From assembly GCA_023395695.1 (NCBI GenBank), contig JAEWYJ010000308.1:1-13480 (forward strand): a stretch of DNA of 13,480 nucleotides. Direction: 5' to 3'. This document shows, piece by piece, positions 415 through 13,480 of this stretch. Position numbers and translations under genes: made by a program. The first letter of the stretch is position 1. Every line of letters starts with the position of its first letter. Below the pieces are notes generated by a model. It ran no database searches and was not told the DNA's origin. It saw nothing but the letters and a program-made list of their open reading frames with translations. Source of the DNA: Bacillota bacterium. GTDB taxonomy: Bacteria; Bacillota; Clostridia; Oscillospirales; Ruminococcaceae.

Positions 415-930
415 ATGGCGCTCGCTCTGAGCATTATCGGCATTAACATCGTCTACGTTTCACTCAACACGCTTCGTACCATTATGGTCATCAAGGGACA
501 GCGACTTCTGGCTTCAATGATTTCTATTGTCGAGGTAGGCATTTATCTGCTGGGCCTGACAATCGTTTTAAACAACTTGACCAGTCCGCTGAACATTATG
601 GCGTATTGCGCCGGTTTTGGCATGGGGGTTTATATCGGCAGCTGCCTTGAGCAGCACCTTGCGCTGGGCTATGTCAATGTGCAGGTTATTGTAGATTCTG
701 CCGATTGCAGACTGCCCGATTTACTGCGGGAGGAAGGCTACGGCGTAACCACATGGCTGGGGCAGGGCCGCGACGGCACCCGGCTGGTGCTGCAGGTATT
801 GGCGAAGCGCAGTGCCGAGAAAGCGCTGCTGGCTTTTTTACAAAAGGCTAAACCCAATGCGTTTATTGTATCGTACGAGCCTAAAAATTTTGTCGGCGGG
901 TTCTGGACCAAACATATTCGCCATTTTTAA
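415..930 (+). CDS. UPF0316 / DUF2179 family membrane protein (YebE-like)
   Basis: The protein has 171 residues. Three hydrophobic segments at about 3-25, 31-52 and 58-76 form the N-terminal DUF5698-like membrane part, with the characteristic NTLRTIMVIKG stretch (18-28). A soluble C-terminal half of about 85-171 matches the DUF2179 domain ('GYGVTTWLGQGRDGTRLVLQVLAKR'-type pattern ending in SYEPKNFVGGFW). Length and order match the Firmicute UPF0316 proteins (B. subtilis YebE type, usually ~170-180 residues). The DUF2179 domain also ends YitT-type membrane proteins, but no biochemical role is known. The start is supported by AGGAGG six bases upstream of the ATG. It stands alone, divergent from the CoA-binding gene and convergent with the glycosylase, with a shared bidirectional terminator downstream. 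Confidence 0.88.
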   Translation: MALALSIIGINIVYVSLNTLRTIMVIKGQRLLASMISIVEVGIYLLGLTIVLNNLTSPLNIMAYCAGFGMGVYIGSCLEQHLALGYVNVQVIVDSADCRLPDLLREEGYGVTTWLGQGRDGTRLVLQVLAKRSAEKALLAFLQKAKPNAFIVSYEPKNFVGGFWTKHIRHF

Positions 931-1140: not shown

Positions 1141-1797
1141 TTAAAGCTTTTGTTTGCCCTTTGTCTCTTTGGCGGGTGCATAATCCCGCATGCCGGGAAT
1201 AGCGCCGTTGGCAACCGCCCAAATATAAAGGCTGGCCACCGACCCGCAGGGACTGTAGCGGCGGCGGTATTTTTCAAAGAGCGTGCGGTCAATTTTGCGG
1301 TGATGGTACAGCATCCGTAAGCCACGCTGAATCGCAAGATCCCCAAAGCTTAAAATATCGCGGCGCTGCATGCAAAAAAGCATCAACATTTCGGCCGTCC
1401 ATATGCCGACGCCCTTTAATGCCGACAGCGCCGCAATAACCTCGTCGTCGCTTTTTTCAGACAGCGCGTCCATATCAAAGACGCCTTCGTATACCTTTTG
1501 TGCAAAATCCTTGATATACTCCGCCTTTTTAAAGGTAATGCCGCAGGATTGCAGCGCCTGCAATTCGGTGGCGAACACGCTTTTAGGGGTTATTTCTCCC
1601 AACGCCTGGGTCATTCTGCGCCAGATGGTCGCCTGTGCAGCCGTTGAAATCTGTTGCCCCACAATATGCCGTACCACCGAGGCGAACAAATCGCTGTCGG
1701 TGTCGCGCTCAAGGGGGCCCAGCATGTCTATCACCGCACCCAGACGTTTATCCTTCTTTTTTAGATAGGCCAACTCTTTTTCTTCGCACACAAACAC
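1141..1797 (-). CDS. DNA-3-methyladenine glycosylase, AlkA-like HhH-GPD protein
   Basis: This base-excision-repair enzyme would remove alkylated bases. In the 218-residue product the segment LFASVVRHIVGQQIST (about 37-52) and the helix-hairpin-helix LKGVGIWTAE (127-136) are clear. They are followed by SFGDLAIQRG, whose Asp (about 153) sits where the catalytic aspartate of HhH-GPD glycosylases lies. The length fits the compact clostridial AlkA-like enzymes that lack the N-terminal AlkA domain. The frame is open to a TTG at 1869, but that codon overlaps a perfect TATAAT box and has no ribosome binding site. Family homologues usually begin close to the EKELAYLKKKD segment. I therefore prefer the GTG at 1797, which has a weak GGGATG upstream; GTG at 1791 is also possible. 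No iron-sulfur cysteine cluster is present, which argues against EndoIII or MutY. Confidence 0.85.
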   Translation of the reverse strand: MFVCEEKELAYLKKKDKRLGAVIDMLGPLERDTDSDLFASVVRHIVGQQISTAAQATIWRRMTQALGEITPKSVFATELQALQSCGITFKKAEYIKDFAQKVYEGVFDMDALSEKSDDEVIAALSALKGVGIWTAEMLMLFCMQRRDILSFGDLAIQRGLRMLYHHRKIDRTLFEKYRRRYSPCGSVASLYIWAVANGAIPGMRDYAPAKETKGKQKL

Positions 1798-1867
1798 GCT
1801 GCCATCACATCCCTTAAAAGTATCATAGCAGAAAAACGCCGGGTTTTCTTCTCTTTTTGTTATCTGC

Positions 1868-1962
1868 AATTATATAGTCAAACCATCAGAAAACAAAACG
1901 TCTTGACGGTCTGTTTTGCAGCTGGCCGCGTTGTCGTCCTTGAAGGGCGCCAGCCCATCTGC
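1868..1962 (-). repeat. Dispersed repeat, copy B (inside the MITE-like element)
   Basis: Read on the minus strand, GCAGATGGGCTGGCGCCCTT begins at 1962 and matches copy A for 31 of 35 bases. It continues through AAAACAGACCGTCAA, shared with copy C, and ends at CTATATAATT, the inverted end of the MITE-like element. The hairpin seen in copy A survives here with one mismatch. Confidence 0.7.
1869..1896 (-). promoter_or_regulatory. Promoter for the glycosylase, provided by the end of the MITE-like element
   Basis: On the minus strand a perfect TATAAT (1869-1874) follows TTGTTT (1891-1896) at a 16-base spacing. The predicted start near 1862 is downstream of the TTG at 1869, which supports a later translation start. 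The box lies inside the terminal inverted repeat of the element at 1868-2034. Confidence 0.5.
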
Positions 1963-2093: not shown

Positions 2094-2675
2094 TTATCGG
2101 CCGTGCACCCAGCTGCGCCTGATTTTGCGTTGTATATCCTGTGGTAGTACAGGGGTGCGCTGGGTGCCTGCAAAGGCGACGCAGCCCAGGCATTTCATGC
2201 CGGAGTATTTAAAAAACGCCTTCATAGCCCGCAATGAACCGACGCTCTGGCCTGCAAGCAGCGAAAAGGGAAAGGGCGTGGCGCAGGTTGTCAACAAAAG
2301 ATATTTTTGCTGTGGGGACAACCGCGGCTTGGGCAAACCGCCCGTTTGCTCCATAACGGTGCCGGTCAGACGGTCGAACAGGTTTTTGACCGCCGCCGGA
2401 ATATTGGCCCAATAGGTCGGCGCTGCCAGCACCACACGGTCCGCCTTTTTTAGCAGTGCCGCAATCTGGGCGGCGTCGTCTTGCACAACGCATTCGCCAA
2501 GTGCCGAACAGCGGCCGCAGCCGATGCAAAAAGCTAAATTTTTCTGGTAAAGGTTAACGGTGGTTACCCGCCAGCCGTCCTGCAAGGCGGCGCTTACAGC
2601 ACAGCTAAGCATGGCAGCCGTGGGACCATTCTGATGAGGACTGCCCAAAATAGCCAGCAATGTTTTATCGTTCAT
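2094..2675 (-). CDS. Flavodoxin-family FMN oxidoreductase with iron-sulfur-flavoprotein cysteine motif
   Basis: The protein has 193 residues with a flavodoxin-like fold. An N-terminal strand leads into the FMN phosphate loop GSPHQNGPTA (11-20), and APTYWANIPAAVKNLFDR (85-102) gives the second flavin loop. Four cysteines at 50, 53, 56 and 62 make CX2CX2CX5C. This matches the compact motif that binds a 4Fe-4S cluster in the iron-sulfur flavoproteins (Isf) and is common in clostridial 'flavodoxin family' reductases. It probably carries out NAD(P)H- or ferredoxin-linked electron transfer in the cytoplasm; the substrate is unknown. Its ATG overlaps the TetR stop codon as ATGA, and GGAGG lies 13 bases upstream, so it is translationally coupled to the regulator and shares its promoter. 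No hairpin terminator is visible after its stop. Confidence 0.82.
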   Translation of the reverse strand: MNDKTLLAILGSPHQNGPTAAMLSCAVSAALQDGWRVTTVNLYQKNLAFCIGCGRCSALGECVVQDDAAQIAALLKKADRVVLAAPTYWANIPAAVKNLFDRLTGTVMEQTGGLPKPRLSPQQKYLLLTTCATPFPFSLLAGQSVGSLRAMKAFFKYSGMKCLGCVAFAGTQRTPVLPQDIQRKIRRSWVHGR

Positions 2676-3316
2676 TGCCTGTTGTCCTCCATTGAAATAA
2701 TACGGTACAGCCTGTCAAAGCCGTCCTCCAAAAATTGCTGCTTGGTTGTGCCAACGTATTGTTCAAGATAGGCCTGCTTGGCGGACGCCACTTGTATCAG
2801 GCCCGACAGTGTGGCCCAAAACCAGAAAACCGTCTGAAGAATCTGTGACTCGGAGCGGTTGTGGCCAATATCCGTTTCAGCCTGAATGAAGGTGAAAAGC
2901 GTTTGGTTAATCTGTTCACCCACGTCAAAAATTTCCCGTTCGACCGGCAGGTGCGTCGCGTTTTCAAAATTCACGTTGATCTCCCCCAGTGCCAGCGTGT
3001 AATAAAGCGGGTATTGCGCCTGATAACACACCAGCGTATGACAGATTCTATCGTACTTTTCTTTGGCCGCACCCGGCGCGGAAACTGCCCGGCTCAGACA
3101 GCCCTGTAGCAGCCTCATGCTTTTAAGCGCAAGAGTGCCGACAATATCCTCCTTATTTGTAAAGTAGACATATACAGTCGCTTTACTGTAGCCCGCCTCT
3201 CTTGCGATATCATCCATCGTCGTACCCTGAAGCCCTTTTTGCCGGAACAGTCGCTCGGCCGCTTCCGCAATATTGTCGCGGTGTGCGCTTTCCGGCTCCT
3301 TTTTTCGCCGCCCCAT
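2672..3316 (-). CDS. TetR/AcrR family transcriptional regulator
   Basis: The protein has 214 residues. Residues ~12-58 form the TetR DNA-binding domain: IAEAAERLFRQKGLQGTTMDDIAREAGYSK and then the typical ATVYVYFTNKEDI. The C-terminal all-helical region of about 70-214 is a ligand-binding and dimerisation domain of unknown ligand. The ATG at 3316 follows GGAGGGAA at a good distance. A consensus promoter (3362-3390) and a large palindrome (3331-3369) just upstream indicate autorepression. The only other gene in the transcript is the flavoprotein, so the effector is likely a compound that reductase acts on, or a redox or xenobiotic signal (inference). Confidence 0.92.
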   Translation of the reverse strand: MGRRKKEPESAHRDNIAEAAERLFRQKGLQGTTMDDIAREAGYSKATVYVYFTNKEDIVGTLALKSMRLLQGCLSRAVSAPGAAKEKYDRICHTLVCYQAQYPLYYTLALGEINVNFENATHLPVEREIFDVGEQINQTLFTFIQAETDIGHNRSESQILQTVFWFWATLSGLIQVASAKQAYLEQYVGTTKQQFLEDGFDRLYRIISMEDNRQ

Positions 3317-3462: not shown

Positions 3463-3558
3463 GGCTGACACCCAACAAGAAAGGCAACGCAGCAGCGCGG
3501 AAAACAGGCCGTCAAAATGGGACGCTTTTAAAGTTAGGCGGTTATCCTATAAAAATGG
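3463..3558 (+). repeat. Dispersed repeat, copy C
   Basis: It begins GGCTGACACCCAACAAGAAA and ends CCTATAAAAATGG. The first 53 bases align without gaps to copy A at 40 positions and to copy B at 38. The AACAGGCCGTCAA block and the CTATAAAAA end are the best conserved parts. It is in the opposite orientation to copies A and B, and the hairpin found in copy A is not retained. Confidence 0.6.
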
Positions 3559-3593
3559 CAGGGTACAGCGCGTTTCAAGCGCTGTACCCTGCC
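3551..3593 (-). terminator. Intrinsic terminator of the exopolysaccharide operon
   Basis: A perfect 15-bp stem (3557-3571 with 3579-3593) with a 7-base loop is followed on the minus strand by ATTTTTATAGG. It lies about 105 bases past the MBOAT stop codon. On the plus strand no T-run follows, so it works leftward only. The T-run is also the end of repeat copy C. Confidence 0.82.
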
Positions 3594-3698: not shown

Positions 3699-5111
3699 TC
3701 AGAATCTGAAATAAATAAACGGATTAAACGAGCTGCCAATGACACTTAAAATGCTTGCCACCAGCAACACCAGCAGGCATAACCCCTTAAGTATCTGCCG
3801 GGGTGTGCGGGGCAGATACCCCACAGCATCTTTAAACGGCTGATCGAGGCGGGTGGTACTGAGTAGAAGCCCGAGCAGCACCACAATAAAATTGCCCTGA
3901 ATCTCCAGTGCGCGCAGGCTCAGGCGCTCTGTAGAAAAAAAGGTTCCAATGCCGAACAGCCGCAGCAAAAAGCCCCCCACCTCAACGGCGGAATTGCTTT
4001 CGTACAGAAAAATAGCCCAGCCGAACATATAGAAAAAGAAGGTGACAGTGCGTGCCCAAAAGCCGGGCAGCCGTGAGAGCAGGCTACCGCTGACATATTT
4101 TTCAAGCGCCAGCAGGACGAAATAATACAGTCCCCAGAAGGCATAGTTCCAGTAAGCGCCATGCCACAGGCCGGTCAAAAACCAGACGACGAGCAGGTTA
4201 AACAGGTGACGGGGCACACCGACACGGTTACCGCCCATCGGAATATAAACATAATCCCGAAAAAAGGTGGAAAGGGAGATGTGCCATCGCCGCCAGAAGT
4301 CGGTAACCGACCGCGCAATATAGGGCTTATTAAAATTCTCAAGAAAGTGAAAGCCGAAAATGCGCCCCAGACCGATAGCCATATCGGAATAAGCCGAAAA
4401 GTCAAAATAAATTTGTACGCCGTAGGAGAAAACGCAAATCCACAGCAGCCCCGGCCCGACCAGCGCCTGATTTTGCGCCCGGATGACCCGTACCGCCTCG
4501 CCCGCGGGGTTTGCCACCAGCATTTTTTTAGAAAGGCCGATGATAATGCGCTGCATACCTGCCCCGGCGTCCTGTGGCGTCGTTTGCCGGCCGCCAATCT
4601 CTTTTTCGACATCGGCATAGCGGACAATCGGCCCGGCAACAAGCTGCGGAAAAAAGAAAATATACAACAGCAGATATGCCCAGTTCTTTTGCAGCGCGAC
4701 CTGCTTGCGATAAAGGTCGATAATATAAGTCATGACCTGAAAGGTATAAAACGAAATGCCAATCGGCATGGTCAGGCCCAGCGTATGTGGCGGTTGCCCC
4801 AGCAGCTGGCCGAAGTTTAGCAGAATAAAGTCCGCATATTTAAACAATAACAGCGGGCCCAGATTGACCAGCAGGCTCAGGACAAAGGCAAAACGGCTGC
4901 CGCGCTCAACCGCGTAAGAAAGCAGATAGGTCAGCCCCGCACAGAGCATAATCAGCAGGACGTATAGCGGTTCGCCCCAAGCGTAAAATACCAGAGAAAA
5001 AACAAGCAAAATAGCGTTGCGCAAAGCAAGGCGGTTTGCCGGACACAGAAAATAAAGCGTTATCAGCAGCGGGAGAAAGCACAGCAAAAACGTGAGGGTT
5101 GTAAAGGTCAC
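3699..5111 (-). CDS. MBOAT-family membrane O-acyltransferase, AlgI-like
   Basis: The protein has 470 residues and about ten or more hydrophobic segments. The family's core is clear: DFWRRWHISLSTFFRDYVYIPMGG (271-294) with His277, and TGLWHGAYWN (313-322) with His317. These match the two conserved histidines of AlgI/DltB-type MBOAT proteins, the second being the catalytic one in AlgI. Length matches the AlgI family. The likely role is to pass an acyl group, usually acetyl, from a cytoplasmic donor across the membrane to the AlgJ-like partners encoded just upstream, for O-acylation of the exopolysaccharide. It starts with GTG, overlapping the previous stop as GTGA, with GGAGGGGG upstream. DltB and peptidoglycan acetylation are unlikely given the neighbours. 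It is the last gene of the operon. Confidence 0.93.
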   Translation of the reverse strand: MTFTTLTFLLCFLPLLITLYFLCPANRLALRNAILLVFSLVFYAWGEPLYVLLIMLCAGLTYLLSYAVERGSRFAFVLSLLVNLGPLLLFKYADFILLNFGQLLGQPPHTLGLTMPIGISFYTFQVMTYIIDLYRKQVALQKNWAYLLLYIFFFPQLVAGPIVRYADVEKEIGGRQTTPQDAGAGMQRIIIGLSKKMLVANPAGEAVRVIRAQNQALVGPGLLWICVFSYGVQIYFDFSAYSDMAIGLGRIFGFHFLENFNKPYIARSVTDFWRRWHISLSTFFRDYVYIPMGGNRVGVPRHLFNLLVVWFLTGLWHGAYWNYAFWGLYYFVLLALEKYVSGSLLSRLPGFWARTVTFFFYMFGWAIFLYESNSAVEVGGFLLRLFGIGTFFSTERLSLRALEIQGNFIVVLLGLLLSTTRLDQPFKDAVGYLPRTPRQILKGLCLLVLLVASILSVIGSSFNPFIYFRF

Positions 5112-6301
5112 GGTGTATCCCCCTCCAGAAAATAGCCGCTCCAGGCGTCCTGCTGGCCCATGAACAGCGCGGCGTCAATATCATATTCTTTCATTATTTG
5201 CTGCAGGTCGACCTGCTCTAAAATACGGAAGTTTACGAATACCGTCGTTGAAAAATGCGAAGCCAGCGGCTGGCGCACGGCGCGTGCGAACGAGTCGCCG
5301 ACAATCAGTAAATTGTATTGCCGGCCGGGAAACTCCAGCCGGATGGGACGGCTTTCAAAGCCGAAATAATTGAGATATTGGTCAAACGCAGGGTCGCGGT
5401 TAATTTCATTGGCGTCGTAAGCCTCCTGAAGGCCGATGGACATTTCTTTATCGCCAAAAAAGGTGCGGTGCGCCCCCAGCAGATAGCGGTCAACGACAAA
5501 GTCGTCCCTGCCGCTTTCGGGAACAGGCAGTGCGCTTTCGCGTGCGCGGCTGCCGCACCACCTGAGCCCGCCAAAATCCTGCGTGTAGTCGATTGGGCAA
5601 GCGGGCCCCAGAGAAAAGTCCTTCGACAGCATATGCAGCAGGTCGGCATAGCCCTTGCGCGCGCCAAGATGGTTCCAGTGGTGGTCGGTTTTATACATCA
5701 ATCGGGTATATTCAGCAAAATCGGGGAATTTCATTTTATCAAAGCGAATGCTCTTATCCAGGGACTGTTCCAAAAGCTGGCTGTATGAAAAGCGCTCGGT
5801 TTGCTCGGACAAATCGAACCAGTCCATGTCCTCTGCACGCGAACAGTAATAGACATAGACCTGCACACCAGCATTCTGCTGCGCGAAACGGTTAATTTCC
5901 TCCGCCTTGCGCAGGTAGCCCGCAACCGCAGACGCGTCCTGCCGGTAGGGGAAGCCGGTCAGCCAGTCGGTATTATTCATACGGTAAACCGCGCCCCACG
6001 GCGTCAGGCTTTGCCGGTTGCCGGACGGGCGGGCCAGATTTTGCAGACGGTTATAGGCTCTGCGCAGCAGCGCCTGTGTCTGGACGGTGGTTTTCACCGC
6101 CGGGTCGTGGATTGAAATCTGATCTTTGAGCGCCTGCTCAAACTGCGTCTGGAAGCTGCCGGTCAGCAGTGTATTCCACCGCAGGGCGGGGAAATTTTGC
6201 AGCTGCTCGTTTTCAGAGGTGTTGGGCCGTACCAAGATCGAATATGAAAAAAACAACCCAAATACAAGCAGCGGCAGCGCGCCGATGAGGAGCTTTTTCA
6301 T
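5108..6301 (-). CDS. AlgJ/AlgX-like (DHHW family) polysaccharide O-acetyltransferase partner, membrane-anchored
   Basis: The protein has 397 residues. One N-terminal hydrophobic segment (about 4-24) has no signal peptidase site or lipobox, so the protein should stay anchored with its body outside. The domain is SGNH-hydrolase-like. YKTDHHWNHLGA (203-214) holds the DHHW motif (206-209), and VGDSFARAV (334-342) holds the nucleophile serine (337). Asp206, His208 and Ser337 correspond in pattern to the Asp-x-His and Ser triad of AlgJ and AlgX. It would receive acyl groups from the MBOAT protein encoded just downstream and transfer them to the polymer. The ATG at 6301 has GGAGG close by; the previous gene stops 2 bases before it. 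It is clearly paralogous to the upstream lipoprotein: both share INRDPAF, SxGxQEAYD-like and ASHF blocks. Confidence 0.88.
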   Translation of the reverse strand: MKKLLIGALPLLVFGLFFSYSILVRPNTSENEQLQNFPALRWNTLLTGSFQTQFEQALKDQISIHDPAVKTTVQTQALLRRAYNRLQNLARPSGNRQSLTPWGAVYRMNNTDWLTGFPYRQDASAVAGYLRKAEEINRFAQQNAGVQVYVYYCSRAEDMDWFDLSEQTERFSYSQLLEQSLDKSIRFDKMKFPDFAEYTRLMYKTDHHWNHLGARKGYADLLHMLSKDFSLGPACPIDYTQDFGGLRWCGSRARESALPVPESGRDDFVVDRYLLGAHRTFFGDKEMSIGLQEAYDANEINRDPAFDQYLNYFGFESRPIRLEFPGRQYNLLIVGDSFARAVRQPLASHFSTTVFVNFRILEQVDLQQIMKEYDIDAALFMGQQDAWSGYFLEGDTP

Positions 6302-6303
6302 TT

Positions 6304-7482
6304 TCAGCCTCCGGTATAGCTTTGGAACAGACTGATCTGCCCGACCAGAACCACAACGTCAATGTCGTTGTCCTGAATAATCCGGTTCAGATCCAGACTG
6401 TTGGTCTGGACATCGTCCAGATAAATGGTGCGGTTAAAATGGCTGGCCAGGAGCTTGCGGAGCGGCCGGCCCTGAGAATCTGAGAGCATCAGCAGGTTGG
6501 GGCGTTCGGGCTGGTCAAACTCAAAGCGCACTACGCCGGTCTGCCCACCGTAAAACGAAAACAAATGCTGAAAAGCAGGGTCTCGGTTAATCTGGCCCTG
6601 ATCGTACTCCTCCTCCATGCCCAGCACAACCTGACGGTCGTCAACGTAGGAGGTAAAGCTGCCATAATCAAATTTATAAGTCTTAAAAATGTCCATTGCC
6701 GATTCGGCAATATCGGCGCTGCCCGGATTTTGAACGGTTTGCCCAATTGTGCGCAGGCTGTTATAATCCACTTCTCGCAGCGGCTGCTTCATTGGCGTCA
6801 TGGGCATATCCCGTGAGAGCAGCTGGTAGATTTCCCGGTAGGCACGGTGAGCGCCTATATGGTTGAGGTGAAAGTCCAGCTTGTAGCCGGTTTCCATATA
6901 GTCCCCAAGGCTGCTCAAGGTAAAAGCCCCGCTCGTAATGCCGGAATTGGCCAGCAGGCTTTTAAAATAGGCGGCGTAATCGTAGGCAAAAATGTTCGCT
7001 GTGCGGCCGTACCAGTTGCAGTTGGTCGCCCGGTTAATAAAATAAGTGTAAAACTGCACCTGCGGGTTTTGCTGGCTTAATAATTTAAGGCTGTTGGCAC
7101 GGTTGGTCATTGCGGTCTTAATGTTATCGCTTTCTTCATCTGGCTTTGAGATGAGATAGTCGGTATCGTTTAAACGATAAAGCTGCTGTGCGCCGTAGGT
7201 GACCGGTGTCAGCGCGACCTCGGTAATTCGGTAGTCATTGTTCAGAAAAGTTCCCGGCTCCGACTGCTTGTAGGCGGGCGGCCAATAGGCCGGCGTACCG
7301 GTTCCGCGCAGCAGGGGGTCTTCAATGCTCAGATAAGCCTCTGTCGCGCTCACAGTTCTGGGCGGCAGCGACGAAGATGTATCAGTCAGCGTCGACCGTT
7401 TTTTTACCACCCCGCAGGCAGACAGAACCAGTATTACCGCAAGGGCGAGCACAAGTGCCGATAATTTCCGGTGTTTTGGCAT
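6304..7482 (-). CDS. AlgJ-like lipoprotein with variant DHHW motif
   Basis: The protein has 392 residues. The signal ends in the lipobox LSAC with Cys23, so it should be a lipid-anchored surface protein. The body is homologous to the next gene's product: GYKLDFHLNHIGAHRAY (199-215) aligns with the DHHW region, and LMLSDSQGRPLRKLLASHF (331-349) aligns with the GDSF/ASHF region. The motif reads D203-F-H205-L instead of DHHW, so the triad Asp and His, and Ser336, are kept while the first His and the Trp are lost. It may be a second acyltransferase with altered specificity or an acceptor-binding helper; the sequence cannot tell which. GGAGAGGA lies before the ATG. A 73-base gap separates it from the preceding gene. 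Confidence 0.82.
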   Translation of the reverse strand: MPKHRKLSALVLALAVILVLSACGVVKKRSTLTDTSSSLPPRTVSATEAYLSIEDPLLRGTGTPAYWPPAYKQSEPGTFLNNDYRITEVALTPVTYGAQQLYRLNDTDYLISKPDEESDNIKTAMTNRANSLKLLSQQNPQVQFYTYFINRATNCNWYGRTANIFAYDYAAYFKSLLANSGITSGAFTLSSLGDYMETGYKLDFHLNHIGAHRAYREIYQLLSRDMPMTPMKQPLREVDYNSLRTIGQTVQNPGSADIAESAMDIFKTYKFDYGSFTSYVDDRQVVLGMEEEYDQGQINRDPAFQHLFSFYGGQTGVVRFEFDQPERPNLLMLSDSQGRPLRKLLASHFNRTIYLDDVQTNSLDLNRIIQDNDIDVVVLVGQISLFQSYTGG

Positions 7483-7509
7483 AGAAGAACATCCTCTCCG
7501 GCAATTTAC

Positions 7510-7537
7510 ACGTCATTTTATTCGACGGGACGTCATT
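7510..7537. repeat. Two ACGTCATT direct repeats in an intergenic gap
   Basis: ACGTCATT occurs at 7510-7517 and 7530-7537, starting 20 bases apart, in the 73-base gap between two genes of the exopolysaccharide operon. The spacing is close to two helical turns, so a protein-binding site is possible. Another explanation is a short chance duplication. No promoter boxes are convincing here. Confidence 0.35.
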
Positions 7538-7555
7538 ATTGTAGGCGGCGCGGGG

Positions 7556-8107
7556 TCAGCATAGCCCCGACTCAGTAATATAGGCGGCCAAAATATCGGG
7601 CTGGTATTTGTTGTCAGCCTCAAACAGCGTTCTAAAATCGCTAAGTGCTATCAGCATCACGCCGTTTTCAGTCAGCTTTGCGGGCGCAGCCAGATTAACG
7701 GTAGCGCCGTTGACGACGGCCTTGCCGTCCTTGTCAGTCAGCACAATGGTGTTGCCTTTTTCGGTATCGGTCAGCGTCAGGCTGTCTGCCTGCGGCTGGA
7801 GCGCAATATTGCGGCTGAAGGCTTCGCATATCTCGGCCACCGGCACCAGCACCGTCTCGCCCTCCAGCACCGGCGGCTGTGTCAGCACCAGGCGGTTGCC
7901 GTTGAGATACAGCTTAATTTCGGTCTGCTGCAACGCCGACTCGGCAGCGTCGCTTTGGCTGCTCTGTTGCGCCGCCCCGGACGCTGGGGACGACGCCGGA
8001 GATGAAGCGGACGGCGGCTCAAGGACAACCTTTTGTGTCTTGTTGCCGCAGCCGGCCAGCAGCAGAATAATGCAAACCAGCAAAATATTTTTATTCGGTC
8101 TTTTCAT
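7556..8107 (-). CDS. Lipoprotein with copper-amine-oxidase N-terminal-like domain
   Basis: The protein has 183 residues. The signal ends with the lipobox LAGC (Cys20). A Ser/Pro/Ala/Gln-rich linker of about 30-60 follows. Residues ~63-180 show the repeated pattern of the Cu_amine_oxidN1 domain (PF07833): an LYLNGN strand, 'VLVPVAEICEAF', 'TIVLTDKDGKAVVNGATV', and 'NGVMLIALSDFRTLF'. In Firmicutes this domain is a wall- or matrix-side binding module without oxidase activity. It most likely sits outside the membrane and helps hold or present the polymer or its enzymes (inference). A GGGAGG site lies 7 bases before the ATG. It is 41 bases after the GGDEF-like gene. Confidence 0.75.
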   Translation of the reverse strand: MKRPNKNILLVCIILLLAGCGNKTQKVVLEPPSASSPASSPASGAAQQSSQSDAAESALQQTEIKLYLNGNRLVLTQPPVLEGETVLVPVAEICEAFSRNIALQPQADSLTLTDTEKGNTIVLTDKDGKAVVNGATVNLAAPAKLTENGVMLIALSDFRTLFEADNKYQPDILAAYITESGLC

Positions 8108-8148
8108 GACGAACCTCCCTAAGGCTTAAGTGGCGTATTGGCATAACG

Positions 8149-9000
8149 CTAAACGTCGTACTCAAGCTTTTTCTTGGCCTCTTCCAACAGCTGAAAGGGC
8201 GTGTCGGTTATTTCGGAGAAGCGGGCAGCGCCCGAGCGCATTTCCAAAATAATCTGATGCTTGCCCGAGGCAGTGGCTAAATCCAGCTTTTCAAGCCTTT
8301 TAAGCACGCGGTCAACCACAATGTGGGTCGATTCCAAATCGGTAAAAAGCATGGTGCCCCACAAAAAGGGGTTGTTGTCCAGCATATAAAGCGCATCCTC
8401 CTGGCGCAGCGACTGCAATATTTCCCTGGAAATTTGCCTGACCAGCTGCGTCAGTCCGTTTTGGCCCAGCATCTGCGTCAGCTCGCGCTGATAGCGGAAT
8501 TGCCAGACGACTACGACGAGGCTCATTTGATAGCGGCGCGAAATGTTCATATACACGCCGCATTCGCGTTCAAAGCTCCGGATGTTTTTCAGTTCGGTTT
8601 CAGGGTCCACGCCTGACAGGCGTACCAGCTGCTCGCGCATCTGCTCGTTTTGTTTTTCGGCCTGCTTGGTGCGGCCCGAGAACAGATGAACAGCGACGGT
8701 CAGGCAGGGGCTCCAGACAATCCAGAAATAGATATCGGTCGAGATGGAAAGGCCCCGGTAGGCTGCGTAAACAATAACGTAGGTTGCATAGCTGAAGATC
8801 ATGACAATATTAAGCACCAGCCCGATTGGCAGCGTGGAAAAATAGGTGACAATGGCGGTTGTCAGTACAGCCGCCAGAATAATCATGTTTTTTTGAAAGC
8901 TGTCCGGCGTGCCGGATATAAACAAAATGCAGACAAACAGAAGCAGCAGCATGAAAAGGAACGCCAGATCGGCGATCAAAAAATTTCGGTTTTGTTTCAT
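8149..9000 (-). CDS. Membrane protein with degenerate GGDEF domain, probable c-di-GMP receptor
   Basis: The protein has 283 residues. Four hydrophobic segments (about 8-30, 37-55, 58-80, 88-106) are followed by a charged linker helix (110-128) and a GGDEF-type fold from DPETELKNIRSFE (132-144) onward. Where an active cyclase has GGDEF, this protein has DNNPF (208-212; 8365-8379), so it should not make c-di-GMP. RQED at 199-202 (8395-8406) lies exactly five residues before that position, the spacing of the RxxD inhibitory site of WspR/PleD-type domains. A protein with an intact I-site and dead A-site is typical of c-di-GMP receptors such as PelD. Its start overlaps the BcsB-like stop (ATGA), so it should be made with the synthase and probably controls it. 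Confidence 0.8.
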   Translation of the reverse strand: MKQNRNFLIADLAFLFMLLLLFVCILFISGTPDSFQKNMIILAAVLTTAIVTYFSTLPIGLVLNIVMIFSYATYVIVYAAYRGLSISTDIYFWIVWSPCLTVAVHLFSGRTKQAEKQNEQMREQLVRLSGVDPETELKNIRSFERECGVYMNISRRYQMSLVVVVWQFRYQRELTQMLGQNGLTQLVRQISREILQSLRQEDALYMLDNNPFLWGTMLFTDLESTHIVVDRVLKRLEKLDLATASGKHQIILEMRSGAARFSEITDTPFQLLEEAKKKLEYDV

Positions 9001-11144
9001 GTTTGCCCCTTCTTTCCGTATTTTCTGATAAGCATGACCGCAGATACCACAATAAGCAGCAGCGCAAGGCCAACGGCAAGCACCAGCGCATGAATATCTC
9101 CGCGGGAGGTCAGTTGTTCAATCAGAGATTCGCGCTTGGCGTTATCCTCCTTAAACCTGAAGGGGAAAACATCGACACCGTCAGCGACATAGCCGTCTCC
9201 GTAAAGCTGCCAGAGGTTATCGGTCAGGCCGATATAGGAGACGCCGCGCAGCATAGCGTCGTCGCTGACGCCGGTCACCACCATCAGCGCGCGCTTTTGC
9301 TCGCTGTAGGGCGAATTAAGCAACTGCACGGTGCCCAGAACGGCGCCATAGTTGGGGTCTATCGTCAGCTTTTCGTTCGAGCGAATGGTCGTTCCCTGCG
9401 GGCTGAACTGGAAGAACATCATGTTGTTGATCTGCTGAACAATCAGGTTTTTTTCCAGCCGGCCGATCGCGATGACGTTCGACGTCTTGAGGTCGCCGAT
9501 ATCGGACATAAAGGTTACCCGCAGCGCGCCGGTATTATCCTTTAAAAACTGGCCAAAGGTCAGCATAATCTGCCGCAGCGCCTCCAAATCGGCCGCGCCG
9601 GCGGAATCGGGAAGCACAGCCACAACGTTGTTAAAACGGCCGTCCTTTAAAAACGGGCCGGGATATCCTTCAAATAGAATGCCCTCAAAATCGACCGGTA
9701 TTATTTTAAGCATGCTTTCGCTTGTCACATAGGCCCAGGGCTGCTGTGCCTGATTAAGCGTACACCATGCGTCCTGCATTTCAAGGTCAAAGGAGACCCG
9801 CACCGAAAAATTGCCGTTCACACGCAGGTCTGCGGGAATATCCAGCCGGACAGTGTCCCCCTGAGCGCTATCCTTTTCCAGCTTTTTGCTGCCGATAGGC
9901 TGGTCGTTGACGTAGACGGTGACCAGCGAACGGTTAAAGTCCAGATTTTCGGAATACCGCATCGAGAGACTGACCTGGCTGGAGGTGGAAAGCACGCGGT
10001 TGGCGGGCAAATCCAGATAATACGAGATGCTCTGGCGGAACAGTCCGTCCACATAGCTGCCCGCCTCGGTCAGCTGGCGGTATTGCGCAAGCTCGGCTCT
10101 GGGCATCAGCATATCTTCGTCCGCGGTTACCCGCCGCCATAGCGTGCGTGCCTGTGCCATATAGCCGGCATTGCCCAGAAGGGTGCCGGCATTGCGCAGC
10201 GCATTGTCATTATTGCCGGTAACCAGCAGCAGATTGCTGCCCTCGTCACTTTTTAACAGCACCATGACCGCATCCTGCTGTGCCGTCTGGCGCTGCTCGT
10301 CGGTCAACTGCCCGGTAAGGGTTGTGGACAGGGCGTCGTACCGGCTGATATACAGCTGGTATTTGCCTGAAAATAGTGTTTTCTCGTCCGAGAAAGTTTT
10401 AAATCCGACGTTTTCGTATGCCATTTTTGCCTGACCCGACAGCCCGGCCAGTGCCAGCGCAGCCGCAGTTAGCTCGGCTTCGGTGGCGTTGTCACGCACA
10501 AGCACGGTGCTTTGCCGGTTTTCAAGCGCGTCAATGCTGGCAAACTGCCCATAGAAGTCCGCCAGCGTGTTACAGGGCACTGTGGGGTAATAGCGAATTG
10601 AGACGGTGGAATCACCAAAAATCTCAAGCCAGTTGGCAAGCGACACATCGTCGACACAAGGTAGCCTGTCCTGCGTCCGGATGTAAGCCTCAATGGTCAG
10701 CTCGTTTTGCCCCGCCTTGATCTGGTCAATCGGAAGCGGGATAGACAGCTCCTGTGTTGTGCCGTTTATACCGGGGGTTGGACGTACGGAATAGAACACG
10801 GTGTTATTAAGCGTAAAGGTCAGGCTTGAAACGGTGTTATCCGCCAGCTGAGATACATCGTAACGCAGCGTCAGTGTCGCGCTGCGGATGTCCCACTCGC
10901 CTGCCTGAAAATATCGGATTGCCTGAGAAAAAAGCCCGGTCAGGCTTTGATCGTTTCCAAAAGACTCCTCATGAAGGTAGGGCATATTGCCCCCGGTCAA
11001 ATCGGTTTCGGCCAATACGTCGGGTGTTTGCGGGCCTGCCGCCGGCTCGGGCTCGGCTGCGCCGACAGATAACAGACCGCCGAGCTGGCTCAATAAAAAA
11101 ACAAACAACAGAGCAGCGGCCCAGCTTCTTCTTTTCATGTTCAA
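8997..11144 (-). CDS. BcsB-like synthase partner protein, exported and membrane-anchored
   Basis: The protein has 715 residues, near the size of proteobacterial BcsB (about 780). A signal peptide (about 1-29, ending VGAA) precedes a long extracytoplasmic part. A single C-terminal membrane helix (about 685-706) is followed by a short basic tail. The body has the BcsB-style internal duplication: GLFSQAIRYFQAGEWDIRSATLTLRYD (70-96) and GLFRQSISYYLDLPANRVLS (367-386) each lead into a beta-rich jelly-roll-like stretch with 'V.VND.P.GS'. The family's known job is to dock on the glycosyltransferase and guide the emerging glycan. It starts with TTG at 11144, seven bases after GGAGG; the ATG at 11138 is also possible. 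It lies 13 bases after the glycosyltransferase stop, which supports the partner role. Confidence 0.85.
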   Translation of the reverse strand: MNMKRRSWAAALLFVFLLSQLGGLLSVGAAEPEPAAGPQTPDVLAETDLTGGNMPYLHEESFGNDQSLTGLFSQAIRYFQAGEWDIRSATLTLRYDVSQLADNTVSSLTFTLNNTVFYSVRPTPGINGTTQELSIPLPIDQIKAGQNELTIEAYIRTQDRLPCVDDVSLANWLEIFGDSTVSIRYYPTVPCNTLADFYGQFASIDALENRQSTVLVRDNATEAELTAAALALAGLSGQAKMAYENVGFKTFSDEKTLFSGKYQLYISRYDALSTTLTGQLTDEQRQTAQQDAVMVLLKSDEGSNLLLVTGNNDNALRNAGTLLGNAGYMAQARTLWRRVTADEDMLMPRAELAQYRQLTEAGSYVDGLFRQSISYYLDLPANRVLSTSSQVSLSMRYSENLDFNRSLVTVYVNDQPIGSKKLEKDSAQGDTVRLDIPADLRVNGNFSVRVSFDLEMQDAWCTLNQAQQPWAYVTSESMLKIIPVDFEGILFEGYPGPFLKDGRFNNVVAVLPDSAGAADLEALRQIMLTFGQFLKDNTGALRVTFMSDIGDLKTSNVIAIGRLEKNLIVQQINNMMFFQFSPQGTTIRSNEKLTIDPNYGAVLGTVQLLNSPYSEQKRALMVVTGVSDDAMLRGVSYIGLTDNLWQLYGDGYVADGVDVFPFRFKEDNAKRESLIEQLTSRGDIHALVLAVGLALLLIVVSAVMLIRKYGKKGQT

Positions 11145-11157
11145 GCAATGTCCTCCA

Positions 11158-12408
11158 TTATTTAAAGCGTTCGGTTTTATACCAGGTGGTTTCTTTGCGC
11201 AGCACGAGGTCTTTTATATATTGTATCAGGCCGTAGACTGCAACCACCATCCACATTTTGGCGTAGGTAAAATACATCAGCCCGATAATTACGATGTTTG
11301 CCGCATGCATTTCGCCCTTTTCGGTTGTAACCGTCACATACGTTCCCAGAACAAACATAACGATGGCAAGCGCCCAAAGCAGATTGCTAAAACCGGCCAG
11401 CGTCATATGCGCCCAGCCGCTGGCATGGAGCAGAAAAACGCTGTCTGAAATGACCAGAGAGGTCAGCAGTAAAAAATAAATCGATAAAAAATACAGAATA
11501 TCAAAGCGAACCTGTCCCGCTTTCCGGTCAAAGAGCATCGGCAAATTTTTAATCAGCACATATATATTGCCCTTGACCCAGCGGGTTCGCTGCCGGAACC
11601 AGACCTTCATGGTCTGCGGCTCCTGTTCCCAGGTGACGGCCTGGGGCAGAAATTTAATGCGGTAACCCATCCGATAGATGCGAAAGCTTATTTCGGTATC
11701 CTCGGCGATGGCGTGGATGTCCCATCCGCCCATCTGTTCCAGAATGCTGCGCCTTACAATAAAGTTGGTGCCCGGTATTGTGCACAGCTTCATCAGCTTC
11801 CACCGGCCGGCCTGCGCCATCCATTGGAACGAAAGCGTTTCAATGTTGATAAAGCGGGTGAGCAGCGTCGCATTTTTGTTACGGGTACGGAATTTGCCAA
11901 TGACAGCGCCAAGCGTGCTGTCGGCGCAAATTTCAGATACCAGCAGCCGCAGCGCATTGGGTTCGGGCGTGTTGTCCGCGTCGTAAATGACAATATACTC
12001 GCCGGTGCAGTGCGCAAAGCCGATGTTAAGCGCATTCGACTTGCCCTTGCCGCCGGTGACACGGTCGGTATTAATGACCTTGAGGTTGCGCCCGGGGTGC
12101 TTTTGCTGAATTTGAGCAAGCAGCTGCGCGCTGTCGTCGGAGGAATTATCGTTGATGACAATAATTTCGTACCGGTTCTGCGGGTAATTAAACGCCAGCA
12201 GCGACAGCACCGTCTGCACAATGACAATGCCCTCGTTATGCGCCGGAACCATAATCGACACCATCGGGAAGCGGTCCGGCACCGGTGGCGTATAGCCGGT
12301 GGATTCAAGATAATACATGTAGCCGCCTACAATCAGCAGGACGTTGATCAGCAGCAGCGACCATATGCAGCAAAGGGAAGCCAGCATCAGGATGTCAATA
12401 GTATTCAC
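11158..12408 (-). CDS. Processive family 2 glycosyltransferase (BcsA-like, no PilZ)
   Basis: The protein has 416 residues. An N-terminal membrane segment (about 8-30) precedes a GT2 domain with the standard motifs: PAHNEG (55-60), INDNSSDDS (85-93), YDADNTP (142-148, the DxD pair), the acceptor region PGTNFIVRR (212-220), AEDTEISFR (235-243; the TED-type catalytic base motif with Ala in place of Thr) and QRTRW (273-277). C-terminal hydrophobic stretches follow at about 305-327, 335-360 and 370-397. It should make and push out a beta-linked polymer from a UDP-sugar. The protein ends soon after the last helix, so it lacks the PilZ domain by which BcsA senses c-di-GMP. The start is GTG with GAGGG overlapping the stop of the previous gene. 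Chitin/GlcNAc (IcaA/PgaC-like), ManNAc or glucose substrates are all possible. Confidence 0.92.
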   Translation of the reverse strand: MNTIDILMLASLCCIWSLLLINVLLIVGGYMYYLESTGYTPPVPDRFPMVSIMVPAHNEGIVIVQTVLSLLAFNYPQNRYEIIVINDNSSDDSAQLLAQIQQKHPGRNLKVINTDRVTGGKGKSNALNIGFAHCTGEYIVIYDADNTPEPNALRLLVSEICADSTLGAVIGKFRTRNKNATLLTRFINIETLSFQWMAQAGRWKLMKLCTIPGTNFIVRRSILEQMGGWDIHAIAEDTEISFRIYRMGYRIKFLPQAVTWEQEPQTMKVWFRQRTRWVKGNIYVLIKNLPMLFDRKAGQVRFDILYFLSIYFLLLTSLVISDSVFLLHASGWAHMTLAGFSNLLWALAIVMFVLGTYVTVTTEKGEMHAANIVIIGLMYFTYAKMWMVVAVYGLIQYIKDLVLRKETTWYKTERFK

Positions 12409-12419
12409 AGTTTACGCCC

Positions 12420-13480
12420 TCACGATTTCCTGTAAAACATTTGCCGGTAAAGTCTGCGCCCCAGCGCGATAAGAACCAGAAAAACAACAACGCTGGCGCC
12501 TACTATCATGAGCAGGATGCGGTTTGCGCCCGAGAAAAATCCCCCTAAAGAGGCTAACACACTCTTTCGGTAGACATAGGATGTCTCAATGGCCTTTTCT
12601 TCGTATTGTGGCGCCTCCAGCTGCGGGAATTCGGATTTATAATCTGAAAGCGAGAGCCACGCATCGTCAAGCTGCTGCATGGCGGCAGAAAGCGCCTTTT
12701 CATCCGTGAACAGCGGGATGCGGAGCATGGTGTCAATCGGCAGACTGCCGAAGTTGAGCCGGGTGTGAGCGATGCTTTGCAGGTCCTCCAGCGTAAGGCC
12801 AAGCCCGGGGCTGTCCAACTCATACAGCGCAAGGCCTTCTTCAGACAAGGCGGACCTGGCCCGGGCAAGCTTGTCGGAAAGCGGCTCGCGCTCCGACTCA
12901 TACTGGCGCACGAGCGGGTCGTGCAAAACAATGGCGCCGCCTTTTGACTGCACATAGCGCAATGCCTGTGTAAAGCGCTTAAAAGCGGGGTAGTCCAAAT
13001 TGTCGTAGACCGGCATGACCCTGACGATAAAGGGCATGCCGCTTTGCGCAAAGCGATCGGCGGTTGTGCGCAGCATTTCCAGGTCGGAAAAAGGATATAT
13101 CTCGTCCAACAGCGCATACATTTGGCCTGTGGCCGAAGCCATGCCCCCAAAATATTGCCGCAGAAGGCCGCCAAGCATAATATAGCTCAGCCCCTCCGGC
13201 TCATACCAGGGAACATAGGCGGTGTTTGCAAAAATGACCGCAAAGGGGAAGCTGTCTCCTGAATTAAGCACAATATGGCCATAAGGCTGGCCGTATGCCG
13301 GCTGCTGTGCCAGAGTGGCTTTGGCGACAAACTGGTACTGGCTGTGGTCATCCAGCTGCAGCGTTGCGCCAAAATTTTCAAGCGTGAGCGTCGACGCGCC
13401 GTCTACCGGCCCGGCGTCGGGGCCCAGACAGACCGTTGGTATTCCGGCGGCTGTGGCGTCAAGATAGGGCCGGTTTATTG
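12420..13480 (-). CDS. DUF2334 family membrane-anchored protein, 5' end beyond the window
   Basis: The frame is open to the window edge, so 352 C-terminal residues are visible and the true start lies outside. The internal GTG at 13271 is not a start. The central part, FANTAYVPWYEPEGLSYIML and then YPFSDLEMLRTTADRF, MPFIVRVMPVYDN and SKGGAIVLHDPL, is the DUF2334 pattern, a distant relative of polysaccharide deacetylases (PF10096). A single membrane helix near the C-terminus (about 18-40 residues from the end) with a basic tail anchors it. The usual second histidine of an HxxxH-type metal site is not evident after LHDP, so enzyme activity is uncertain. Twelve bases separate its stop from the glycosyltransferase start, so it belongs to the same operon and probably processes the polymer. 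Confidence 0.8.
   Translation of the reverse strand, partial: INRPYLDATAAGIPTVCLGPDAGPVDGASTLTLENFGATLQLDDHSQYQFVAKATLAQQPAYGQPYGHIVLNSGDSFPFAVIFANTAYVPWYEPEGLSYIMLGGLLRQYFGGMASATGQMYALLDEIYPFSDLEMLRTTADRFAQSGMPFIVRVMPVYDNLDYPAFKRFTQALRYVQSKGGAIVLHDPLVRQYESEREPLSDKLARARSALSEEGLALYELDSPGLGLTLEDLQSIAHTRLNFGSLPIDTMLRIPLFTDEKALSAAMQQLDDAWLSLSDYKSEFPQLEAPQYEEKAIETSYVYRKSVLASLGGFFSGANRILLMIVGASVVVFLVLIALGRRLYRQMFYRKS

Follow-up and report, generated by a model that had tools for sequence, protein, structure and literature searches.

A Listeria-like pss exopolysaccharide locus joined to a putative O-acylation module in a clostridial genome

The window considered here, a stretch of 13,480 nucleotides from contig JAEWYJ010000308.1 of a Bacillota bacterium (Clostridia; Ruminococcaceae; assembly GCA_023395695.1), carries a row of eight genes on the minus strand, running from position 13478 to 3699. 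The first four follow the order of Listeria pssB-E (DUF2334, family 2 glycosyltransferase (GT2), BcsB, degenerate GGDEF), and the second four encode a lipoprotein, two SGNH proteins (SGNH-1 and SGNH-2) and an MBOAT acyltransferase. These last genes form an accessory O-acylation module and probably attach acyl groups to the polymer. At a probability of about 0.6, the locus is expected to make a Pss-type exopolysaccharide that would itself be the acceptor for O-acylation by the linked module. The pss core is already known from Listeria, and its pairing with an acylation module was not found described; this literature search covered titles and abstracts and is a weak one, as most subscription papers lay outside its scope. 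The full combination had been regarded as undescribed in the initial annotation, which holds for the pairing with acylation genes but not for the synthase half, because that half has the Listeria pssB-E order.

The synthase half and its predicted receptor

The row opens with a DUF2334 protein (12420..13478, PssB-like by position; Pfam DUF2334, 6e-8) whose 5' end lies past the window edge. It continues with a GT2 polymer synthase (11158..12408, PssC-like; Pfam Glyco_tranf_2_3, 7e-34), a BcsB-like co-polymerase (8997..11144, PssD-like; Pfam BcsB, 2e-43; 34% to Listeria) and a degenerate GGDEF protein (8149..9000, PssE-like; Pfam GGDEF, 1e-8), a likely I-site receptor for cyclic di-GMP (c-di-GMP). 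In Listeria monocytogenes (L001), the order is membrane protein, DUF2334, GT2, BcsB and diguanylate-cyclase-like protein. The five Listeria genes are pssA-E, with PssC as the GT2, PssD as the BcsB orthologue and PssE as the receptor (PMC4125290); comparing the gene order with this naming makes the DUF2334 gene pssB. Gene lengths in Listeria and the window are 1251 and 1251 bp for GT2, 2052 and 2148 bp for BcsB, and 855 and 852 bp for GGDEF, and the two GT2 proteins match at 651 bits. In Listeria, however, pssE is followed by a methyltransferase and an ACT-domain protein, with no acylation genes directly there.

One scan of genome contigs with BcsB yielded 96 loci, of which the best 80, of Bacillota type, were kept. 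The five-gene core is complete in 71 of these (in 41 the order is that of Listeria, and in 30 the GGDEF-like gene comes second), the remaining nine being cut, fragmented or otherwise incomplete in gene calling. A PssA-like gene was found in 72 of the 80 and in the nearest named relative, Oscillospiraceae bacterium LTW-04 (G187), whose genome is one contig of 2952321 bases; the window ends before that position. In Clostridium minihomine (L003:6959-12948), one synthase is followed by two tandem BcsB-GGDEF pairs. Scans of viral contigs found no BcsB relative and no SGNH-1 relative. Over 76 copies the DUF2334 proteins have no invariant aspartate or histidine (the best, D132, occurs in 63), and the histidine of their LHDP motif varies in 21 aligned copies. 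Set against the CE4 site of polysaccharide deacetylases, the PssB-like DUF2334 proteins therefore appear to be relatives of these enzymes without catalytic function.

The GT2 protein contains the motifs DAD (residue 143), AED (235) and QRTRW (273). It scores 179 bits with the NCBIfam model PgaC_IcaA (cut-off 422) and 88 bits with CelA (cut-off 699), passing neither cut-off, and no PilZ domain was matched among its Pfam hits. A BcsA/BcsB-like synthase had been proposed for this locus; the BcsB-like half of that proposal was borne out, whereas the GT2 lies nearer to IcaA/PgaC than to CelA. A cellulose-type reading was rejected on the sub-threshold scores and the lack of a PilZ match.

In the receptor-like protein, RQED stands at residue 199 and is followed, after five residues, by DNNPF in place of GGDEF. 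In Listeria PssE, which binds c-di-GMP, five residues likewise separate an RxxD I-site from a degenerate DKDDA motif (PMC4125290). The I-site RxxD is kept in 97 of 98 homologues and GGDEF in none; the window, Listeria and the loci supply 81 of the 98 and a protein search the other 17, two copies of 200 aa or less having been dropped before the count. The sole exception is a PssE-like protein of Vagococcus allomyrinae (L037:11949-12800). The window receptor likely binds c-di-GMP at its I-site, and the earlier suggestion of a degenerate-GGDEF receptor in a polymer operon was supported to the extent of a c-di-GMP-receptor-like protein.

Further evidence on the polymer comes from LTW-04, where the order is UDP-GlcNAc 2-epimerase (facing away), PssA, a 382-aa lipoprotein and then the same four genes. 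The lipoprotein matches 3ren (titled glycosyl hydrolase family 8; 5e-54), which we take to be CPF_2247, a GH126 protein. CPF_2247 and Listeria PssZ are both placed in GH126 (PMC7479077). Such 3ren-like (PssZ-type) relatives, absent from the window, occur in 60 of the 80 loci, and UDP-GlcNAc 2-epimerase in the stretches of 24. Three genes had been guessed upstream of the row, and two of them, the glycosidase and the UDP-sugar enzyme, are present in LTW-04 as this lipoprotein and the epimerase. The Listeria Pss polymer is beta-1,4-linked N-acetylmannosamine (ManNAc) with alpha-galactose on every other residue (PMC11439720). Since relatives carry the epimerase and 3ren-like genes and the Listeria polymer is built of ManNAc, the window polymer is, by analogy, likelier to be of ManNAc type than cellulose; the pss-type gene order and the I-site kept without GGDEF lead to the same expectation.

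The acylation genes and their relatives

The second half of the row begins with a lipoprotein carrying a Cu amine oxidase N-like (CuAO_N) domain (7556..8107; Pfam PF07833, 4e-13) and the motif LLLAGC, which we take to be a lipobox. Among solved structures it has no relative better than E 0.11. SGNH-1 (6304..7482) is a lipoprotein-like, SGNH acyltransferase-like protein with the subfamily motifs SDSQGRP and TGYK-DFH, and SGNH-2 (5108..6301) is a DHHW/PatB1-like counterpart with a hydrophobic N-terminus; they share 29% identity. In SGNH-2 the motifs TDHHW and GDSF align to PatB1, which it matches in sequence at 8e-9, and SGNH-1 matches PatB1 by profile and fold, its fold being nearer to PatB1/DHHW than to AlgJ. 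Judged from their residues, both proteins possess the Ser-His-Asp set. In SGNH-1 it comprises D203, H205 and S336, although the residue ahead of the catalytic DS is serine, not glycine (SDSQ), and the window copy lacks the tryptophan of DHHW. The MBOAT (3699..5111; Pfam MBOAT, 4e-22) matches DltB structures at 1e-20, and its H277 and H317 are invariant in a 5-row alignment. Its C-terminal end, FIYFRF, fits FXYXXF, the acyl-shuttle motif of MBOAT proteins (PMC12148441). Two AlgJ-like proteins had been proposed here; an alginate-type origin is less likely, as PatB1 is nearer in sequence and fold. The MBOAT-SGNH signatures are intact, in agreement with the proposal of an acylation module in a Gram-positive.

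The module thus resembles PatA1/PatB1 of Bacillus cereus through both SGNH proteins, but differs in sitting behind a pss-type synthase and in having two SGNH proteins and a lipoprotein. AlgI/AlgJ/AlgX, which acetylate alginate, and WssF-I are also among the closest known systems. The Clostridioides difficile locus ccsZABHI, for which O-acetylated cellulose has been proposed, is also a clostridial locus in which a polymer synthase is accompanied by an MBOAT and a DHHW protein; in contrast to the window, with its BcsB homologue, separate receptor, two SGNH proteins and no PilZ found, it is described as having a CcsB that is not homologous to BcsB and a PilZ domain on the synthase CcsA (PMC7710045). 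C. difficile also has a separate BcsA/B pair, accompanied by WecB, GH113 and a deacetylase and interpreted as ManNAc-rich, and section 12 of the same paper names no acylation genes for it (PMC7710045). Elsewhere, acetylated cellulose operons are listed for four species, three Pseudomonas and one Bordetella (PMC7112194), and a PilZ synthase not clustered with bcsB has been noted (PMC10374906).

A second, different MBOAT module was found in five of the 80 loci: L055 (Murimonas intestini) and L062, L067, L071 and L081, which are metagenome-assembled genomes labelled Clostridia, Clostridiales or Bacillota. Its MBOAT ends in FIYFQF and adjoins a protein some 850-895 aa long (truncated in L071) that has SGNH-type motifs. 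In L062 this partner has a C-terminal LamG domain by Pfam and no relative among solved structures; it is taken to be an SGNH protein from the motifs GSSH and D..HLN. In an MBOAT tree of 19 sequences, some truncated, the five second-module MBOATs form one clade (support 1.0) on a long branch, and the window MBOAT falls with those that pair with SGNH proteins away from pss (support 0.85). The second module is probably a separate recruitment, and the tree placement, at moderate support, together with the different SGNH partner suggests that acylation joined pss more than once.

Linkage of the module to the locus

Several observations speak for linkage. The intervals between the eight genes are 11, 13, -4, 41, 73, 2 and -4 bp, so that the overlaps and tiny gaps originally noted were confirmed. 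A terminator scan of the window found no terminator-like hairpin in the 41 bp that separate the lipoprotein gene from the GGDEF-like gene, and an intrinsic-terminator-like hairpin with a 15-bp stem, 11 G-C pairs and a T-rich tail lies 3' of the MBOAT stop (3557..3593, minus strand). A single transcript across all eight genes is likely.

Moreover, the module appears to accompany BcsB on four further contigs. Homologue lists for BcsB and SGNH-1 have four contig sizes in common (14845, 21288, 24414 and 18174 bases), and the first two sizes also appear in the GGDEF homologue list. When sizes were jittered by 0.8-1.25, the mean number of matches was 0.04, and four were never reached in 20,000 trials. 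Across five contigs, identity in BcsB rises with identity in SGNH-1 (r = 0.90 for 10 pairs that are not independent of one another). The 18174-base contig has two BcsB homologues, of which P0019 was counted in the correlation and P0038 left out; with P0038, the four pairs lie at 42-43% for BcsB and 43-46% for SGNH-1. In a BcsB tree of 25 sequences, module-bearing contigs fall on either side of LTW-04, a placement that points to an old module with losses in some lineages, most other tips being of unknown module state. Given the apparent recurrence on four contigs, the module looks like an accessory, inherited part of the window's pss branch.

Other results weigh against so close an association. 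The co-occurrence of BcsB and SGNH-1 rests on equal contig sizes, not on contigs that were read, and the scan that found no terminator in the gap gave eight minus-strand promoter-like matches within the operon (23 in the whole window against 10.9 expected). A phmmer search (E 1e-3) of the sequence stretches around the 80 loci recovered neither the lipoprotein nor SGNH-1 nor SGNH-2; in 68 loci the stretch extends 4.5 kb or more beyond the last core gene, and in 12 it is shorter. In LTW-04, pss ends at the GGDEF-like gene and no module follows; the next genes are a DNA glycosylase and a DUF2179 gene, taken as orthologues of the window's pair from matching sequence starts and order. In the window this pair (HhH-GPD DNA glycosylase, 1141-1869, minus strand; DUF5698/DUF2179 protein, 415-930, plus strand) lies beyond the module and beyond a TetR regulator and FMN reductase unit, which overlap by 4 bp (2094-3316), have an 11/12 promoter match at 3390-3362 and are not at that place in LTW-04. 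The SGNH-1 profile has no match in the LTW-04 genome, which has two other MBOATs, each beside a DHHW protein; DHHW-MBOAT pairs therefore exist apart from pss. Likewise, six of 265 genomes of the order carry an SGNH-MBOAT pair with no pss genes in the short stretch inspected around it.

The profile searches were extended to more genomes. At E 1e-10, SGNH-1 was matched in none of 34 genomes (32 from the 80 loci, plus G053 and G187), and further, overlapping draws gave 0/397, 0/396, one weak match in 198 and 6/265; since scoring was confined to the few top candidates of each genome, the zeros are weak, those of the 34-genome set included. The proteins matched are SGNH proteins adjoining MBOATs, none a clear SGNH-1 orthologue, and of five checked, L096, L097, L098 and L101 pass the Pfam DHHW cut-off and L089 does not. 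A break in synteny between the GGDEF-like and lipoprotein genes had been named at the outset as the observation that would count against a joint system, and the single-contig LTW-04 genome has this break. Because of it, and because the search of the stretches around the 80 loci yielded neither the lipoprotein nor the SGNH genes, the module is regarded as accessory. The proposed O-acylated polymer under c-di-GMP control is partly supported, in that a receptor-like protein is joined to an acylation module, and revised in that the module is an accessory one.

It is unlikely that the module merely lies behind pss and acylates another envelope polymer, a secondary cell-wall polysaccharide or teichoic acid, in the manner of PatA1/PatB1. 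The closest solved SGNH relative, PatB1, is named together with secondary cell-wall polysaccharides (PMC12148441), and both the free-standing DHHW-MBOAT pairs and the module-free pss of LTW-04 would fit this explanation. Against these stand the 41-bp gap free of a terminator-like site, with the long hairpin coming only after MBOAT, the correlated BcsB and SGNH-1 identities, and the MBOAT module that other pss loci own. An O-acetylated cellulose-like glucan, as proposed for ccsZABHI, is a very improbable product: the BcsB homologue, the GT2 and an MBOAT-DHHW pair like that of ccsHI (PMC7710045) agree with it, but the published ccs differs in just the BcsB and PilZ features given above, the window GT2 falls far below the CelA cut-off, and LTW-04 has the epimerase and 3ren-like genes beside pss.

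As a further alternative, SGNH-1 might be a non-catalytic adaptor for SGNH-2 instead of a transferase. Its SDSQ serine and lost tryptophan would suit such a role, which is nevertheless unlikely given that all 21 aligned SGNH-1 rows share D203, H205 and S336.

Proposed mechanism and significance

In the favoured mechanism, c-di-GMP would bind the I-site of the PssE-like receptor and switch on the PssC-like synthase. The PssC/PssD pair would then polymerise and export an amino-sugar chain, by analogy beta-1,4-ManNAc. Meanwhile, MBOAT would move an acyl group, probably acetyl, from acyl-CoA to the tyrosine of its C-terminal FIYFRF tail, from which SGNH-2, followed or paralleled by SGNH-1, would hand it on, by way of the catalytic serine, to hydroxyl groups on the polymer as it emerges. 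A possible role of the lipoprotein is to keep the polymer or the enzymes in position.

A bolder and tentative proposal is that c-di-GMP-gated, O-acylated ManNAc-type Pss polymers arose at least twice by separate capture of MBOAT modules, one of DHHW/PatB1 type in the window's Oscillospiraceae-like clade and one of SGNH-LamG type in other Clostridia. Acyl groups would replace the Listeria galactose in the window clade, and SGNH-1 would represent a new, polymer-specialised SGNH subfamily.

Taken together, the results place the Listeria Pss core as one branch within a large family of Bacillota polymer loci that have an I-site receptor, and suggest that polymer-acylation modules joined this family on more than one occasion. 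If the proposals above are true, SGNH-1 would become a named, testable SGNH subfamily, and an acylated amino-sugar matrix polymer would join the few known modified exopolysaccharides of Gram-positive bacteria.

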